From a virus, in the IMG/VR virus record IMGVR_UViG_3300035034_003164, positions 1 to 38,535 of that record: DNA of 38,535 bases. One strand, given 5' to 3'. Positions 11,643 through 32,536 of this stretch are shown here, in pieces (the stretch's first letter is position 1; every line of letters starts with the position of its first letter). Both the position numbers and the translations under genes were made by a program. The notes beneath the pieces were generated by a model. That model had not been told where the DNA came from. It made no database searches and saw only the letters and a program-made list of their open reading frames with translations.

Positions 11643-11669
11643 AAAAGATTAGTAAAAGGGTAGATCAAA

Positions 11670-11823
11670 ACCCGAACGATCTATTAAATGAAATGTGTGT
11701 AGTGCAGTCCCTATGGTGTATAGGGTATCCGATAGCCCCTAGGGGTGGATAAGGTGGAACATTACACACACACCAACTAATAAAGTCTTCTAGTTCGTTC
11801 GGGTCTAGGGGGCTTTATTTTTT
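11670..11823 (+). ncRNA. candidate structured phage RNA with 3' intrinsic terminator
   Basis: About 150 nt without a credible ORF that folds well by eye. P1: TGTGTGTAGTG (11694-11704) with CATTACACACA (11760-11770), 11 pairs with one G-U. Inside P1 are P2, CCCTAT/ATAGGG (11709-11725), and P3, TATCC/GGATA (11726-11751) with an inner GCCC/GGGT stem, making a three-way junction. A terminator hairpin follows: 15 pairs (11779-11793 with 11805-11819), loop TTCGTTCGGGT, then a T run. The loop is perfectly complementary over 10 nt to ACCCGAACGA at the 5' end (11670-11679) and over 7 nt to ACCCGAA in three gene leaders. It could be a trans-acting RNA or an attenuator of the initiator gene. I recognise no known RNA family. 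Confidence 0.65.
11779..11823 (+). terminator. intrinsic terminator just before the replication initiator
   Basis: AATAAAGTCTTCTAG pairs with CTAGGGGGCTTTATT over 15 positions, three of them G-U, with an 11-nt loop; a run of six T ends 10 bp before the initiator ATG. Transcripts reaching the initiator gene from upstream would have to read through it. Confidence 0.85.
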
Positions 11824-11830
11824 ACCCGAA
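11824..11830 (+). promoter_or_regulatory. ACCCGAA leader element of the 11834 gene
   Basis: ACCCGAA lies 3 nt before ATG. The same heptamer is 3-4 nt before the start codons at 13715 and 16958. It is complementary to the loop of the terminator hairpin immediately upstream. Confidence 0.6.
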
Positions 11831-11833
11831 ATT

Positions 11834-13024
11834 ATGAACGTACTATATGAACAACTACAAGGGGGAAGTTATATACAAGTAAGTAAACCACTAGCTAGGA
11901 AACTAGGACTAGACGTAGCCGGATACCTTAGCGAAATGTACGCTAGATATTCCTACTTCTTAGGCCGTAATATGTTGGATCCTAAAGGTGGTTTTTTTGT
12001 TTCCCCAAAAATACTAGAACAAGAAATAGGCCTACCAAAAAAGACCCAGTATAGACTAGCTAGTAAACTAGTGGAACTGGGACTAATGACTAAGAAGAAG
12101 AAGAAAGTAAAAGGCGCAATGCGAAGAAGTTATTATTACTTGAACCATAAGGCGGTAAAGAAAATTATTATATTGTCAATGGAAGAACAACAAAAACTAG
12201 TAGAAGAACGAAACGGCGAAAATGAAGACTTCGCCTTAGTAATTGACGGGGAAGGTAACCACGGGACCCAAAACGACCCCGTAGATAATTTAGTAGATAG
12301 TGGGGTAGCAAACGACCCCGACGGGGTAGCAGACGACCCCGTAACGGGACCCGAAACGACCCCGCGCGGGACCCAGGACGACCCCGTATATAATAATAAT
12401 AAGAATGATACTAAAACTAATGATCTAAAAACTAATAACCTACAAGTTGCTGAATTGGAAATTAAAAAAATTACCGTAGCAGATATTCCTATACAGGTAG
12501 AAGGAATGGAAACAAAGATTACCCGCGCGGGGAAAATTAAATTTTGACCAGTCGTACGGTTTACCCTGGAAGCATTCTTAAAACTGGTGGAAGGTTACGA
12601 CGTGGATATATTGGAAAGCGTTATTAGCGAATTATGCTACTACCAAAAAAATAAGAAATACAAGGATTATTATTTAACCACCCTAAGCCGGATCCGTAAA
12701 AAAACCCCAACAGCAAAACGGACCAAGGAAGGGGAAGAATGCTACAGGATCATAGAACAATTTAATAACGGCCTGGTAGACGGTGACGTACTGGATAATT
12801 CTACCTATTGCGAAAAGATTATTACGAAGCTGAACCAACACACCGGCGTAAAAAGTTCCGAGTATACACGACAGGAAGTACTAACCGGGATCCTATGATT
12901 AGCGAAAGCGAACAAGTACGTAATTAGGAAAATATCTAACCCTAAAAGTATCTTTAATAATTTAGCTGAACTAGCAAATACCGCCGGATCGGACGTACAA
13001 GAACAAAACCAATTTAGTTACTAA
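11834..13024 (+). CDS. replication initiator protein (winged-helix, O/DnaD-like)
   Basis: A 396-residue protein needing readthrough of TGAs at 12545 and 12896. The N-terminal 120 residues carry a winged-helix pattern, GGFFVSPKILEQEIGLPKKTQYRLASKLVELGLMTKKKK, like phage O, RepA_N and DnaD-type initiators. A central acidic low-complexity linker (about 140-205, with repeated NDPV and GTQ) is encoded by the iteron-like DNA. The C-terminal 160 residues are helical and end with RKISNPKSIFNNLAELA, which resembles the end of initiator proteins that load helicase. No helicase or loader gene is seen, so host helicase recruitment is inferred. The start follows ACCCGAA-ATT. Confidence 0.75.
12263..12450 (+). 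other. candidate replication origin: five iterons plus AT-rich element
   Basis: ACGACCCCG occurs five times at 12273, 12312, 12333, 12356 and 12378; the last four are 21-23 bp apart, two helical turns. Each lies in a longer repeat of the form GGG-N7-ACGACCCCG. From 12387 to about 12450 the sequence becomes strongly AT-rich (TATATAATAATAATAAGAAT and onward). The layout, iterons inside the initiator gene followed by an AT-rich stretch, is that of the lambda O-gene origin. Function is inferred from architecture. Confidence 0.65.
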
Positions 13025-14582: not shown

Positions 14583-14840
14583 ATGGATAAATATATAGAC
14601 GCTGAACAAGCGACCAACGAACTAAGACTAGCGGAAGAAAAACTACGGACGCTAAAAAAATACGATAAGGTACCCTTCGGGATCATAAAAAAAATAATGG
14701 TAAAAATACAGCACTTCCGTAGATCCGTATATACTAGATCCGTAGTAAATGATATAGGTAGAAAAGATTATAAAAAAGGATACTTCCGTAATTTTCCGGA
14801 TACTTATATAGCTGAACAAGACGTAAAAAATGCCGGCTAA
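14583..14840 (+). CDS. small basic unknown protein
   Basis: An 85-residue basic protein I do not recognise, with an N-terminal helix (EQATNELRLAEEKLRTLKKY) and a Lys/Arg-rich middle. It overlaps the HNH gene start by 11 bp and is probably translationally coupled to it. A DNA-binding accessory role is possible from charge and context only. Confidence 0.7.
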   Translation: MDKYIDAEQATNELRLAEEKLRTLKKYDKVPFGIIKKIMVKIQHFRRSVYTRSVVNDIGRKDYKKGYFRNFPDTYIAEQDVKNAG

Positions 14841-15282
14841 TTATATAGTAAGGGCGCTAAAGTCCAGGGGCTACGATCCCGACCGGTTCCACGGGTGTAA
14901 ATGTGAACGGTGCGAATACCAATACTTCCACCCTAAACAGTTCCCGAGGTTCGCGCAACTATTCACGTTGTACGCTTCGATCCCGAAGTACCAGGAAGTC
15001 CACCATATAGACGGAAGGGGTGGTAAACGTAATACAGACAACCGCCTAAACGATCCTAGGGGACTTATACTACTATGTAAGCATTGCCACGCGCAACTAA
15101 TACACGGACGCGACAGACAGGACGAACACAAACGTATAGCGCTTTATAAAATTAACCTAAGTAATGGATCATTGACAAGCGAACAAAAGCAACTTTTTAG
15201 TAAAGGATATAACAGACACCATAATAAGCGGAACGCTAATACTTCCGGTATATGTGATAACAGCGAAGACGGACGAAGGTAA
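14830..15282 (+). CDS. HNH-type nuclease / zinc protein (NinG-like possible)
   Basis: A 150-residue protein with a treble-clef HNH pattern: CKCERC at 23-28, EVHHIDG at 56-62 with the His pair 58-59, NRLNDPRGLILLC at 71-83, and CKHCH at 83-87, followed by His92. Two Cys pairs likely bind zinc. HNH proteins of this size near RusA-type resolvases in phages include NinG/Rap-like recombination factors as well as free endonucleases; the resolvase gene immediately follows and overlaps, which favours a recombination role. The C-terminal 50 residues are basic. Confidence 0.75.
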   Translation: MPANYIVRALKSRGYDPDRFHGCKCERCEYQYFHPKQFPRFAQLFTLYASIPKYQEVHHIDGRGGKRNTDNRLNDPRGLILLCKHCHAQLIHGRDRQDEHKRIALYKINLSNGSLTSEQKQLFSKGYNRHHNKRNANTSGICDNSEDGRR

Positions 15283-15679
15283 GAAATATCGACTAAGCCA
15301 AAACAACCGCGTAAATCGACACTACCAAACCTACGCGAAAATAAAGAAACAATACCACACCCTAGAGGGGGTAAAAATGTTAGCTAAGTACGTGGAAGGG
15401 ATCCAGGGCGACGGAACTATAATAATAGATTGTATGAAGTATAAACTAATTTTTTGAACATTGACCAAAAGGGATAGGGGAAATTACCTAGCACTTATCC
15501 GTAAATTTTTAGAAGACGCGCTAGTATTGAACGGAATAATAGAAGACGATAACGATAATTATATAGGCCCAGTAAGTGACGATCGTTTAACTTATGACAA
15601 AGGAGTAAACCAGGCGGAAGTATTTATAAAGCTGAAAAGAATAAATACCCTGGACTTTACCGCTTGAAATTATACGTAA
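15164..15679 (+). CDS. RusA-like Holliday junction resolvase
   Basis: A 171-residue protein with TGAs at 15173, 15456 and 15665. It shows the RusA pattern: LILPVYVITAK strand, LSQNNRVNRHYQTYAKIKKQY, then KRDRGNYLALIRKFLEDALVLNGIIEDDNDNYIG. Conserved acidic positions Asp104, Asp118, Asp128 and Asp129 are visible; the usual D-x-D-N appears as D-R-G-N. I chose ATG 15164 because a GTG start at 15254 would drop the first strand, though it would shorten the 119-bp overlap with the HNH gene. It would resolve four-way junctions made during recombination or replication before packaging. Confidence 0.8.
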
Positions 15680-15720
15680 AAGAAGTATACAAGTATTTAT
15701 TTATATCATACTATTTTGAA

Positions 15721-15993
15721 ATGAAACAAAGGAAAAGGGGCGTAATTATCGACGGGGATATTATTAGAGAAGAACTAGACGCCTATAAAGCCAAGGAAGG
15801 TATAGACGGTTTCCGTACAGCTTGCGAAAGTTTAGGCCTGGTTCATACTACAGTAAATAACGTACTACTAGGAAAGTCTATAGACCAATCGACCGCCAAG
15901 CTATTAGAGAAGGTAGGGTTTACGGTTATCTATAAAAATATTAGAAGAAGTCCTAACCTAAAAAAAGTTAGTGACAAGAAAAGTACAAGTTAG
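15721..15993 (+). CDS. small helix-turn-helix regulator
   Basis: A 90-residue protein with a Cro/CI-type HTH pattern at about 33-65: FRTACESLGLVHTTVNNVLLGKSIDQSTAKLLEKVGF. N- and C-termini are basic. I start it at ATG 15721, which follows TTTATATCATACTATTTTGAA, rather than at the in-frame TTG 15664. It sits just upstream of a clear promoter driving the recombination genes, so a role as an early-region repressor or switch is plausible. Confidence 0.75.
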   Translation: MKQRKRGVIIDGDIIREELDAYKAKEGIDGFRTACESLGLVHTTVNNVLLGKSIDQSTAKLLEKVGFTVIYKNIRRSPNLKKVSDKKSTS

Positions 15994-15995
15994 GC

Positions 15996-16023
15996 TTGAC
16001 TTAGTAAATAACAAATCTATAAA
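15996..16023 (+). promoter_or_regulatory. sigma-70-type promoter for the recombination genes
   Basis: TTGACT at 15996 and TATAAA at 16018 with a 16-bp spacer, 35 bp before the ATG at 16059. A second promoter-like leader, shared with the 13435 gene, lies at 16037-16061. Confidence 0.65.
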
Positions 16024-16036
16024 CCTTACGTATCAC

Positions 16037-16061
16037 CCTTTATATTTATGCTATACCAATG
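16037..16061 (+). promoter_or_regulatory. promoter-like leader, copy 2 (TTTATGCTATACCA-ATG)
   Basis: Near-identical to the 25 bases before 13435. TATGCT is followed by six bases and ATG, which suggests a leaderless start, in addition to the TTGACT/TATAAA promoter just upstream. Confidence 0.55.
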
Positions 16062-16931
16062 AACGAAAACCAACTAGCTACACCAGGTTCTAGGTTCGAC
16101 CTATCCGGGTTAGAACAAATCCAAGCCTTCGTAGAAGTGCTAAAAAAGGACAACGCTTTACCGTCTTCTATAGACAACGCGGGACAGTACATAAGAGTAC
16201 TACAAGCGGGTAAAGATATGGGACTTTCCGTAACGGAAGCTACCGAAGACATAGCAATTATAAGGGGGAAAACTTCCTTATATGGACCGGCCGTACTTGC
16301 ACGTCTTAGGGACTTCGGATACGCTATAAAATGGGACGAAAGTACAGCTACGAAATGTACGGTAACCGTAACCCATAAAGAAACGAAGGAAACGGCTACG
16401 GAAAGTTTCACTATAGAAGAAGCAAAAAGCGCGGGACGGTTAGCAAAACAAGGACCACGACATACGGTACCTAAGCAAATGTTACGTTATAGGGCTATAA
16501 GTTTTATCGTAAAATTTAGCTTCCCGGAAGTTATGAGAGGTTTTGCAATAGCGGAAGAACAACAGGAAGTAATAGACATAACCCCAACGGCAACCGTAAA
16601 GGATCCAACAACACCGGCGCCAAGTATTACTACAGTAGTCGAAGGCTTCACCGTAAAAGGGGAAGAAGTACAACTAAGCGACCAGGCGAAGGGTGAACCG
16701 GAAGTAGTGGAAGCGGAAATTATAACGGAAGAAACGCCGGAAATAGCGGAAATAGTAGAAGAAATAAAGGAAGAAGAAGTAGGCGGAATAAAAGAAGGAT
16801 CTAGAGTAGTTCACAAATTACTAAAGGAAGGAACCGTAAAAGAAATATTCCTGGAACAAGCTATAGTAAGTTTCGACAGATCACCGGATAAGGTGAAAAA
16901 AATAAGACTAGAAGTATTGGAACTAGTATAA
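16059..16931 (+). CDS. RecT-type single-strand annealing protein with Tudor-like C-terminal domain
   Basis: A 290-residue protein. Residues 1-170 follow the RecT/Bet-like pattern: LQAGKDMGLSVTEATEDIAIIRGKTSLYGPAVLARLRDFGY, then an acidic SFTIEEAKSAGRL and KQMLRYRAISFIVKFSFPEVMRGF. Residues 170-238 are a Glu/Val/Pro-rich linker. Residues 243-290, GSRVVHKLLKEGTVKEIFLEQAIVSFDRSPDKVKKIRLEVLEL, follow the Tudor-like pattern at the C-terminus of UvrD/PcrA helicases (V-H--fG-GtV), which in PcrA contacts RNA polymerase. It would pair with the exonuclease encoded next in a Red-type recombination system. Confidence 0.8.
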   Translation: MNENQLATPGSRFDLSGLEQIQAFVEVLKKDNALPSSIDNAGQYIRVLQAGKDMGLSVTEATEDIAIIRGKTSLYGPAVLARLRDFGYAIKWDESTATKCTVTVTHKETKETATESFTIEEAKSAGRLAKQGPRHTVPKQMLRYRAISFIVKFSFPEVMRGFAIAEEQQEVIDITPTATVKDPTTPAPSITTVVEGFTVKGEEVQLSDQAKGEPEVVEAEIITEETPEIAEIVEEIKEEEVGGIKEGSRVVHKLLKEGTVKEIFLEQAIVSFDRSPDKVKKIRLEVLELV

Positions 16932-16946
16932 TTTTACTTTTGTAGA

Positions 16947-16953
16947 AAACCCG
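16947..16953 (+). promoter_or_regulatory. ACCCGAA leader element of the exonuclease gene
   Basis: ACCCGAA followed by a short A tract and ATG at 16958. A TATAAT lies 25 bp before the ATG (16929), so here the element sits in a plausible short 5' leader. Confidence 0.55.
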
Positions 16954-16957
16954 AAAA

Positions 16958-18046
16958 ATGCCAATACCACTAGACAACTACGTAATATATAATCGTGGAC
17001 GGATCACCGCCAGTAAATTAAAATGTTTTCGCGGGAACCCTAAAGAATATTACCTAAAATACGAAAAGGAAATGCCGGTACCTAGAACAACTGGTAGACA
17101 CTTCGTAATAGGTAACGCGTTCGACGATCTAGTAAGTTACGGTAAGGAATACTTCCTAAAGAAATACTACATAGACGACGGACTAGTAACCGCGGGGCTT
17201 AAAGAAATGTTACTTAAAAGGTATGAACTAGAAGGAGAATATAGCAAGGAAGACGTATACGAAGAAAAAAGAAGACTTAAAGCTATGAAGCTACCGGAAC
17301 TTAGAAAAGAATATTACTTACCGGACGGGAACTATCGTATAAGACTTACACCCGGTGAAGGTACTATGATCCTGGGAATGTATGAAGAAGTAGTACGCCC
17401 GGATATGGAAGGAAACAACTTAGCGGATCTATTCGGGAAATATAATACCCAGGTAGTAATAGAAGCGGAATACGCCGGGATCCCTATACGTGGAAAATTA
17501 GATAGGTTCATATTTATAGACCAGGAAAAAAGAAGGTATACGGTGAAGTGGGTAAATAAATTTATAAAAAGACAGGGGAAGGCGAAGCGAATAAAGCTAG
17601 CTAGCAAACATAAAATAATAGGGCTAATACGTGACCGGAAAACTACAAGCCTGGACGTAGCGAAAGCAACCGACGCGGATATAAACTTTTATAACTTCGA
17701 AATGGAAGTTAGTAAGTGGGGATATGATTTTAGTATGGCGTTCTATAGTGCCTTAGTACTTGCAAAATATGGAGTACTTAGCGACGTGGTACTAGACTTC
17801 GTACAAAAGAAGGACCCGTACCCGTACCATTGACACCGGGAACATTCTAGCAAAATGCACCGTATCATACAGGACGAAATAAAGCTATGTTTAGAAACTC
17901 TAATACGTTGCTACGAAGTAGGGGACCGACCACTAGTAAACGTGATAAGCTGAAAAGATCTAGACCGCGGGGATCTTATGAAAAGTTCATACTATAGACA
18001 CTTCCCGGAAAGCGTACAGACTTCTTTTACAACTGGGGAATATTAA
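16958..18046 (+). CDS. PD-(D/E)XK exonuclease (RecB/Cas4/RecE-like)
   Basis: A 362-residue protein with TGAs at 17831 and 17951. ITASKLKCFRGNPKEYYLKYE near the start and VIGNAFDDLVSY at 48-59 match the N-terminal substrate-binding part of phage PD-(D/E)XK exonucleases. The catalytic set is visible: Asp182 in GIPIRGKLDRF, then Asp226 and Lys228 in LIRDRKTT, followed by a helix with YSALVLAKYG. Such proteins resect double-strand ends to 3' single strands for the annealing protein encoded 26 bp upstream. The C-terminal 70 residues continue after the first TGA with Leu/Tyr-rich helices. Confidence 0.85.
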
Positions 18047-18081
18047 AACATATACCTAGTATTTATTCTTACTTACTTATT

Positions 18082-18918
18082 ATGAACAACGCACTAGAAC
18101 ACTTACCACAAGAAGACCGCCCTACAAGGGGAAGGAAAAAGAAAAGCTACTTACGTTACTTAGTTATTGGATCCGTGTTACTTGCACTATGAGTAATACT
18201 ATATATCCTTCGCGGGACTAACGGGGATTGTTTATTATGTGAAACAAACCGTAAATATAACAAGCAAATAACAGTAGTAGAAAATAACATTATCCAAAGT
18301 ATGAAGTACAAAGCGGATATAGAAAAAGAACTAACGAAAACCGACGAAAAGCTAGCGGAACTATACGAAGACCTAGACTTATTAAAGCAACGTAAGGAAC
18401 TAGAAACTAAGATTACTACTAGGTTAGTCCAGGATCCGAAAACCGAAGAAGTGGAACTATTCCAGGGCTGAAAAGAAACGGGTATAATGGTTCCCGAATT
18501 AGTGGAAACTTACCCATATAAATTTAAGGCCTTTATTAGATACCCTAAAAACGAATACCAAAAAGACACGGTCTTACTGGAACATAAAAGCGTAAAGGAC
18601 CGGGATAAAAATATAGCTATGTCTATAGCCTACCAGGTAGGGGGAATGGATTACGTTACCACTTTAGACCAGGAAAACGGACAGCGAAAACTAGACCTAC
18701 TGGGTGACGGTGGAACTTCTATAGGGCTATGTCAATTACAAAAACATTTACATAAAGAATTTATCGAAAGCCCTTACTTTATGGATTACGAAAACCAGGT
18801 TATCTATTGTTATGATGTTCGACAGGACGCCGTAGCGAAGGATAAATTAGAGACTACATTTTATGGGTATAATGATAGGACAGATAATAGGGCTAACTTT
18901 TATTTCATAAAAAAGTAA
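18082..18918 (+). CDS. membrane-anchored lytic transglycosylase-like protein
   Basis: A 278-residue protein with TGAs at residues 37 and 130. Layout: basic N-terminus (RPTRGRKKKSYLR), one hydrophobic helix at about 23-44 (YLVIGSVLLAL-G-VILYIL), a charged coiled coil at 60-120, then a lysozyme-like domain: IAYQVGGMDYVTTLDQENGQ with catalytic-type Glu198 and GDGGTSIGLCQLQKH at 208-222, the 'S-GL-Q' signature of SLT transglycosylases, ending with FYGYNDR. The topology, short inside and enzyme outside, is that of a signal-anchor lysin. It lies between recombination genes and small unknown genes, far from the holin cassette. Confidence 0.8.
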
Positions 18919-18922
18919 TAGA

Positions 18923-19288
18923 ATGGATAGGCACCCACAACTAAAGAACCTAACCGACCAGGTAGCGTATATCTTAGAGACGTTCCCCGTGACTAGGGAA
19001 AACGATAGGCTACTAACCGTTACGATCCGGCGTATATTCTTCGGTATAAGGCAGTCGGTACCCGTGGAACAATACCTAAGCGGTGAACTACCGACTAAAG
19101 ACAATGTAAAGCGTCTTCGTGCCGGATTTAATAAGAATAATTTATATCTACCTAGGGATCCGGAAGTATGTAAAAGAAGGAAAATAAACCAGGAAAGGTA
19201 TAGGGAAGCGTTCGGGGAAGACTTCGACGTATACGCAAATAGACAGGCCAGTAAGAAAAAAAGACTAAGGGACTTCGCTTTACATTAG
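18923..19288 (+). CDS. conserved-looking small phage protein
   Basis: A 121-residue basic protein. The pattern ILETFPVTRENDRLLTVTIRR..., LSGELPTKDNVKRLRAGFNKNNLYLPRDPEVCKRRKINQERYREAFG is one I have seen in many uncharacterised siphophage proteins of this length encoded near replication genes. It suggests a small DNA-associated protein. It begins 4 bp after the transglycosylase stop codon. No catalytic motif. Confidence 0.75.
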   Translation: MDRHPQLKNLTDQVAYILETFPVTRENDRLLTVTIRRIFFGIRQSVPVEQYLSGELPTKDNVKRLRAGFNKNNLYLPRDPEVCKRRKINQERYREAFGEDFDVYANRQASKKKRLRDFALH

Positions 19289-19303
19289 TAAGAAATATAA
19301 AAT

Positions 19304-19678
19304 ATGTGTCAAAGAAAAGGAGATTATAACCTAGAGATCCAGGGAAGGTATAATAAAGATACTGGAGCGCTAGACGTTTCTATAGAAGCTAAGAGTAGGG
19401 ACGTAGACGGCGGGAAATTATGCGACAGTTGTACTATTCGTTCTATATTCGAAGCACTAATAGACGCTATGGTTAGTCGTGGGGTCCAGGACGGAAATAT
19501 AGGCGAAACGCTGAAAGCTATAGTATATTGAATTATGGAAGGTATGGAGACGTCCGGAATGAAAATAGCTATAGGAGACATAGAGACAATACGCAAGGCT
19601 TCGAATAGAGAAAATAAAGAAGAAGCAGTAGAAGAAATAGTAGCGCAACTAAAAACCCATTTTAATAATTCTAAATAA
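19304..19678 (+). CDS. small unknown protein
   Basis: A 124-residue protein requiring readthrough of TGA at 19529. It has a CQRKGDY start and one C-x2-C (KLCDSCTIRS at 39-48), so a metal site is conceivable. The second half is acidic and helical (RENKEEAVEEIVAQL). It lies in a run of small genes of unknown function. No family recognised. Confidence 0.7.
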
Positions 19679-19686
19679 TCGTACCT

Positions 19687-20421
19687 ATGGACGAAAACAA
19701 ACAGCTAAAAGAATTCGAACCGTATTTAGCTACGGGAATGGAACTACTAGACACCGCGAAAACGCTAGTAGTATCTAACCAGGAAGAAAAGGAAGACGCG
19801 GAACTATTCCTAGAACAAGTAAGCGACGTAGAAAAGACTATTACTACACTAAGGGAAACCGCTAGTAAACCGTTCTACGATATGCACAAGGCAATAATAG
19901 CGAAGGGGAAGGAAATTATAAAACCTACCCAGGACGCCAAGGTACTAGTAAAAACTAGACTAGCTGAATACGCTAGGGAACTACGTAGGATCCAAAAGGA
20001 GAAGGAAGACGCGCTACGTAAGAAGAAGGAAGAAGCCCAGGCGAAAGCGAAGAAGGAAGCCGAAGAAAAGGACGCTAAGGAGAAGGAACGCCTAGCTAAG
20101 ATTGCGAAGGAACAAGGGGAAGCCGAAGCGGAAAAGGAAAAAAGGAGAATAAAAGCCGACAAGGACCTAGCGGAACTAAAAGGAGAACCGGAAAACGAAG
20201 AACTAAAAAAGATCCAGGAAGAAGAAAAAGCGCTAAAGAAGGAAACGAAAACCACGAAGGTAAAAGGATCCAGGGACGTAAAGAAATTCGAAATAGTAGA
20301 CCCTAACCTTATCCCTAGGGTATACCTAGTTCCGGACGAAAGCCTTATACGCCAGGCGGTAGGACAAGGAAGTAACGAAATACCAGGGGTAAGAATTCGA
20401 GTAGAAACGGTAGTATATTAA
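19687..20421 (+). CDS. coiled-coil phage protein of the recombination/replication region
   Basis: A 244-residue protein of a pattern common in phages near exonuclease/annealing protein or SSB genes: a helical N-terminus with KPFYDMHKAIIAKGKEIIKP, a long Lys/Glu/Ala coiled coil (about 90-190), and the conserved ending KKFEIVDPNLIPRVYLVPDESLIRQAVGQGSNEIPGVRIRVE. Its function is not established; association with DNA metabolism is inferred from where homologues occur. The leader ATCGTACCT before ATG is shared with the 10176 gene. Confidence 0.8.
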   Translation: MDENKQLKEFEPYLATGMELLDTAKTLVVSNQEEKEDAELFLEQVSDVEKTITTLRETASKPFYDMHKAIIAKGKEIIKPTQDAKVLVKTRLAEYARELRRIQKEKEDALRKKKEEAQAKAKKEAEEKDAKEKERLAKIAKEQGEAEAEKEKRRIKADKDLAELKGEPENEELKKIQEEEKALKKETKTTKVKGSRDVKKFEIVDPNLIPRVYLVPDESLIRQAVGQGSNEIPGVRIRVETVVY

Positions 20422-31972: not shown

Positions 31973-32536
31973 ATGAAATTTAAGGAACTATTAAAAACGT
32001 TTATGGAAGGAACTAAAGGGGGTTTTCTTAGTATAGCTAAAGCGCTAAGCGACGAAACCGACCCGGCTAAGGCAGTCGAAGAAGCTAGTAAAGTTCTAAC
32101 TAAGACCGTAGAGGACTTAGACGAACAACTAGAAAACCTAGACAAGGTAGAAGAAGACGAAGTACCTGGAGAAGGTGAAGGGGAAGAAAAACCTACACCG
32201 GAAGAAGGAGCGGAAGAAGGCGAAGAAGGTGGAGAAGAAGGCGAAGGCGACGGGGAAGGTGAACCGGAAGAAATAGAAAAGAAGGTAAACGCCCTGGTAG
32301 AAAAAGCTATTACTAAGTATGCGGATATGTACGTTAGCGCGGACAGTCTAGGCGAACTTATGAAGGATCTAAAGACTTTCTTAGGTGGTGAAATTACTAA
32401 AGTAACGGAAGCGGTAAGCGCAAACGCTACAGCTATCCAAAAAGTATCTAAAGCCCACACTTCTAAACAAGTCCACAAGACTAGCGAAGAAGCAGAAGAA
32501 GGAAAAGAAGGAACTTTCGGAAGGATCTTAGGTTAG
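31973..32536 (+). CDS. acidic scaffolding protein
   Basis: A 187-residue protein directly ahead of the capsid gene. It has a helical N-terminus (FKELLKTFMEGTKGGFLSIAKALSD), a coiled coil at 35-58, a Glu/Gly-rich stretch at about 62-100 and a C-terminal helical part. Length, acidity and position are typical of phage scaffolds that guide capsid assembly and are removed by the head protease. It has no TGA. Confidence 0.78.
   Translation: MKFKELLKTFMEGTKGGFLSIAKALSDETDPAKAVEEASKVLTKTVEDLDEQLENLDKVEEDEVPGEGEGEEKPTPEEGAEEGEEGGEEGEGDGEGEPEEIEKKVNALVEKAITKYADMYVSADSLGELMKDLKTFLGGEITKVTEAVSANATAIQKVSKAHTSKQVHKTSEEAEEGKEGTFGRILG

Follow-up and report, generated by a model that had tools for sequence, protein, structure and literature searches.

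A Probable Replication Origin in the Linker-Coding Part of the Initiator Gene of a TGA-Recoded Phage

Introduction

What is the role of a compact array of short direct repeats that lies in the middle of a phage replication initiator gene and is followed immediately by some of the most A+T-rich DNA of the genome? The question is raised by the virus record IMGVR_UViG_3300035034_003164 of IMG/VR, whose entire stretch of 38,535 nucleotides was analysed and is called here the window. An earlier note, made from the letters of the DNA, had described the locus as an origin of the lambda type, built with unrelated repeats and placed within the gene of the initiator. The present analysis finds this description to be the best explanation and the earlier reader right in substance: five 20-bp repeats, together with the A+T-rich stretch, very probably constitute a replication origin within the linker-coding part of the phage's own initiator gene. 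This reading is favored because of the kinship of the initiator, the position of the repeats, their frame-independent spacing, the adjoining A+T-rich stretch and the presence of arrays in the initiators of three out of four relatives. From a general perspective no new replication principle follows, the architecture being a known one of which an instance is found in a recoded phage; what is gained is a concrete candidate origin for a little-studied group of TGA-recoded phages, predicted to infect hosts that are difficult to cultivate.

Genome and Genetic Code

As assembled, a complete phage genome is contained in the window: 127 identical bases are common to both ends, giving a unique circle of 38,408 bp. 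This direct overlap of the ends of the window (1–38535) corresponds either to a circular assembly or to terminal redundancy. The + strand holds nearly all the genes, and many of them show in-frame TGA codons. In the tallied genes of the window, TGA occurs in frame 46 times as compared with 37 occurrences of TGG, and the only stops are TAA and TAG; TGA is therefore a sense codon in this phage. Its most likely meaning, judged from relatives, is glycine (code 25), since the TGA codons of the terminases of relatives fall on conserved glycines, that of the Walker A motif included. The window terminase has a single TGA; in two relatives out of five, one of them being the nearest, the aligned residue is a glycine. 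When TGA is read as tryptophan in tblastn, this terminase is 63% identical to its nearest relative and 36–38% identical to the others, while alignment with TGA as glycine gives 65 and 39–44%, respectively; as the two methods differ, only the alignment columns are decisive. The profile scores of the window proteins are nearly equal whether TGA is taken as tryptophan or as glycine. Two scans of genome contigs with the window terminase, carried out in search of a host, gave no match.

The Initiator Gene and Its Leader

The product of the gene at 11834–13024 is an O-like/DnaD-like replication initiator, as judged by its kinship with PHROG families (Table 1). This extent holds only when TGA is read as sense, whereas under table 11 the frame would stop at 12547. 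The families matched are phrog_428 (replication initiation, E 4.5e-8), phrog_9773 ("replication initiation O-like", E 1e-6), phrog_186 (DnaD-like, E 5e-4) and phrog_678 (E 6e-4), and the C-terminal part is weakly similar to the replisome organizer family phrog_13246 (E 1e-3). In Pfam, only DnaD_N, RP-C and HTH_36 were matched, all of them below threshold, and no O-family match was obtained at E up to 1; likewise, the comparison of the N-terminal part with solved structures gave no convincing match. Downstream of the initiator, the region 14830–20421 of the window includes genes for an HNH endonuclease (14830), a RecT-like annealing protein (16059), an exonuclease VIII-like protein (16958) and a second exonuclease (19687).

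Table 1. Features of the initiator locus, in window coordinates (protein parts in residues of the initiator).
Feature	Position	Strand	Remarks
Initiator untranslated leader	11660..11833	+	Terminator-like hairpin and competing pairing; not needed for the origin claim
Replication initiator gene	11834..13024	+	396 aa; two in-frame TGA read as sense
Initiator N-terminal HTH-type part	~residues 8–118		
Initiator low-complexity linker	~residues 136–210		
Initiator C-terminal part	~residues 211–396		Includes replisome-organizer-like stretch
Iteron 1 CGGGACCCAAAACGACCCCG	12262..12281	+	Repeat search and position-weight scan
Iteron 2 TGGGGTAGCAAACGACCCCG	12301..12320	+	12/20 self-dyad
Iteron 3 CGGGGTAGCAGACGACCCCG	12322..12341	+	14/20 self-dyad
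Iteron 4 CGGGACCCGAAACGACCCCG	12345..12364	+	Codon frame not that of iterons 1–3 and 5; encodes TTP, not DP
Iteron 5 CGGGACCCAGGACGACCCCG	12367..12386	+	Repeat search and position-weight scan
A+T-rich stretch, likely DNA unwinding element	12387..12473	+	Composition only

The leader of the gene shows features of its own. A terminator-like hairpin (about 11779–11820; energy z -4.2) is found just before the start codon, and it is excluded by an alternative long pairing between ACCCGAACGATCTA (11670–11683) and TAGTTCGTTCGGGT (11791–11804), whose enclosing segment has a z of -3.7. The leader may thus be a transcription attenuator; an Rfam search of it gave no match, and a simple terminator scan with constraints on the shape of stem and loop did not list the hairpin. 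That this TGA-recoded phage has both an origin in the initiator gene and a transcription attenuator in the leader is a doubtful proposal; if true, a single RNA switch would govern the amount of initiator as well as transcription through the origin.

An Iteron Array beside A+T-Rich DNA

Five exact copies of ACGACCCCG are present at 12273–12386, where the earlier note had reported them, inside the region encoding the linker between the N-terminal and the C-terminal parts of the initiator. The repeat is better defined as a longer unit, YGGGRYMSVRRACGACCCCG, of 20 bp, and the copies of ACGACCCCG are the conserved ends of five such units spanning 12262–12386. Measured from start to start, the spacings are 39, 21, 23 and 22, so that the last four copies are, as described, 21–23 bp apart, and the gaps between the 20-bp units amount to 19, 1, 3 and 2 bases. 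Their dyad symmetry is only partial, with 10, 12, 14, 10 and 10 of 20 positions in units 1–5 (random mean 4.9). The motif ACCCGAA, noted previously at 12349, is also present.

The array is unique in the genome. Elsewhere in the window, ACGACCCCG is matched only with one mismatch, never exactly, and a position-weight scan of the rest of the window gave no other convincing unit, the best score being 11.5 bits as compared with 28–33 for the five units. Furthermore, nowhere else in the genome do 130 bp contain five occurrences of a 9-mer, the next best having three. A different type of repetition is found at 32133–32263, where tandem repeats of 12–27 bp rich in GAAGAA, in a gene next to a capsid-like gene, are likely to encode a Glu-rich protein repeat.

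The A+T-rich stretch noted after the last repeat directly adjoins iteron 5 and is among the richest of the genome: the 45 bp from 12387 are 87% A+T, a value exceeded by 0.01% of genome windows, and the 80 bp from 12394 are 80% A+T, with 0.1% of genome windows higher.

From this arrangement we infer the activity of the origin and the steps of its use, namely initiator binding, melting, helicase loading and the direction of replication. The helix-turn-helix part at the N-terminus of the initiator would bind the five iterons, the last four of which are about two helical turns apart, and the bound protein would form a nucleoprotein array able to melt the adjoining A+T-rich stretch. The C-terminal part would then recruit the replicative helicase or its loader, and the circular genome would be copied in the theta mode.

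Autoregulation is common among initiators, and the iterons of plasmids also serve in copy control. On this general ground, the repeats might be nothing but regulatory binding sites, for autorepression by the initiator, for copy control or for some other repressor, with the origin placed elsewhere. Such a role alone is unlikely, however, as the array is found 430 bp into the coding sequence and not at a promoter, and the position-weight scan found no unit upstream of the gene. Moreover, the A+T-rich stretch abuts the array, and no other iteron-like array was seen in the genome of the window.

Strand Composition

The earlier note had proposed that cumulative GC skew should turn around 12.3 kb. 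The raw curve rises throughout with no useful extreme and is uninformative in this respect, and GC skew at fourfold sites shows no significant turn either. After detrending, the purine skew at fourfold sites is lowest at 12,859 and highest at 32,011, two points 19.15 kb apart and almost opposite on the 38.4-kb circle. A half-circle model of this skew fits best at 12.7 kb with a gene-permutation p of 0.007, a value that does not come from an unbiased test, several skews having been tried on several site classes. In bootstrap samples the middle half of the best fits falls at 12.7–12.9 kb, with long tails giving a 95% range of 11.2 to 23.2 kb. Late genes give way to early genes at the position of the turn, so that gene modules may explain it, and it is not clearly repeated in four relatives. 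The purine skew at fourfold sites thus lends weak support to the place of the origin.

Initiators of Related Phages

When the initiator was used directly as a query, no relative was found, and the same was true with RecT and portal queries. Relatives were instead reached through the terminase, followed by a search of their records with the phrog_428 profile, and in this way the initiators of four distantly related phages (L201, L202, L204 and L205) were examined. In L202, the region 1781–1871 holds two 22-bp units, AAAAGGACAGGGGGGTGTCCTT, in two reading frames, followed by three A+T-rich 12-mers; judged by its sequence, this array clearly qualifies as a candidate origin of that phage. The linker region of L205 holds a 17-bp palindrome and four 15-bp units, that of L204 two 15-bp units and that of L201 two imperfect 16-bp units. 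When the longest linker repeat was compared with those of 300 synonymous recodings, a repeat as long was found in only two recodings for L202, three for L205 and one for L204, which is significant, while for L201 it was found in 56, with no excess over chance.

The comparison of linkers suggested by the earlier note revealed significant DNA repeats in three of four distant initiators, L201 being at chance level. The letters of these repeats are unrelated to those of the window. Besides, of the three significant sets only the repeats of L202 are independent of the reading frame, those of L204 and L205 being in frame, so that in these two a protein-level cause could be responsible. The finding fits the view that the placement of the origin in the initiator linker may persist while the sequence of the repeats turns over completely.

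Constraint on DNA or on Protein

A linker of low complexity, rich in Asp-Pro, could also give rise to such repeats at the protein level, with codons repeating by chance. Linkers are often repetitive, in-frame repeats are seen in L204 and L205 as well, and while the earlier note had ascribed NDPV/DDPV motifs to the repeats, (N/D)DP is encoded by four of the five copies. The remaining copy, at 12356, falls in a different frame, where it yields TTP. This argues against a protein-level cause, as do the spacings given above, which are not all codon multiples. In addition, CCC is the rarest proline codon of the phage (2.8 per 1000) and yet it is used in all four DP pairs. In fact, when the linker was synonymously recoded 100,000 times with the phage's own codon usage, the maximum was three copies and no trial reached four. 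Because of the frame of copy 4, the spacings, the rare CCC codon and the recoding result, the repeat is understood as kept at the DNA level: the constrained layer of the array is the DNA rather than the protein. The protein-level explanation is largely refuted for the window repeats and must be considered very improbable. This locus is a clear case of one DNA stretch that is constrained as putative binding sites while encoding a linker.

Clusters of ACGACCCCG also occur in other viral contigs, where the spacings are multiples of 3 and nearly all of 6; from these spacings they were judged to be protein repeats.

Repeats may also act in recombination, packaging or partition, and RecT-like and exonuclease genes are present in this phage. 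It is extremely unlikely, however, that the array serves as such a site and is located in the initiator gene by chance, since it lies in the initiator linker, several distant initiators carry comparable arrays at this place, and the terminase gene is 13 kb away.

Comparison with Known Systems

The probable origin in the initiator gene finds its closest parallels among phages. The ori of lambda lies within gene O and consists of 19-bp iterons with an A+T-rich segment of 40 bp after them (PMC5043065), and in lambda and the lambdoid Stx phages four to six iterons of about 19–20 bp are found, extra iterons adding residues to the protein (PMC5043065, PMC7466680). The window shares with these phages a central location within the initiator gene, iterons of about 19–20 bp and an A+T-rich neighbor of about 40 bp. 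It differs in that the lambda iterons are nearly perfectly dyad-symmetric, whereas the window units are partly so, and in that the letters of the repeats are unrelated. Moreover, the similarity of the window protein to lambda O is weak and lacks a Pfam O-family match, and the genetic code is different.

A second parallel is oriL of SPP1, situated within gene 38, where direct repeats and an A+T-rich unwinding element are found in the gene of the origin-binding protein and replisome organizer (PMC6316719). The window likewise has repeats and an A+T-rich element inside an initiator gene. SPP1 has a second origin, oriR, while no second array was found in the window. SPP1 also has separate loader and helicase genes, whereas no such separate gene was recognised in the window by the profiles used, with which the small genes were partly scanned.

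Iteron plasmids of the P1, RK2 and R6K type resemble the window in having tandem repeats for initiator binding, which is predicted in the window, beside an A+T-rich stretch. In these plasmids the iterons usually lie outside the initiator gene, whereas those of the window are within coding sequence. Plasmid iterons bind monomeric initiators (PMC5043065).

With regard to the genetic code, TGA specifies glycine in Gracilibacteria/Absconditabacteria and in many of their predicted phages (PMC10746230). The window phage is similar to the code-25 phages predicted to infect these bacteria in that it uses TGA as a sense codon, most likely for glycine.
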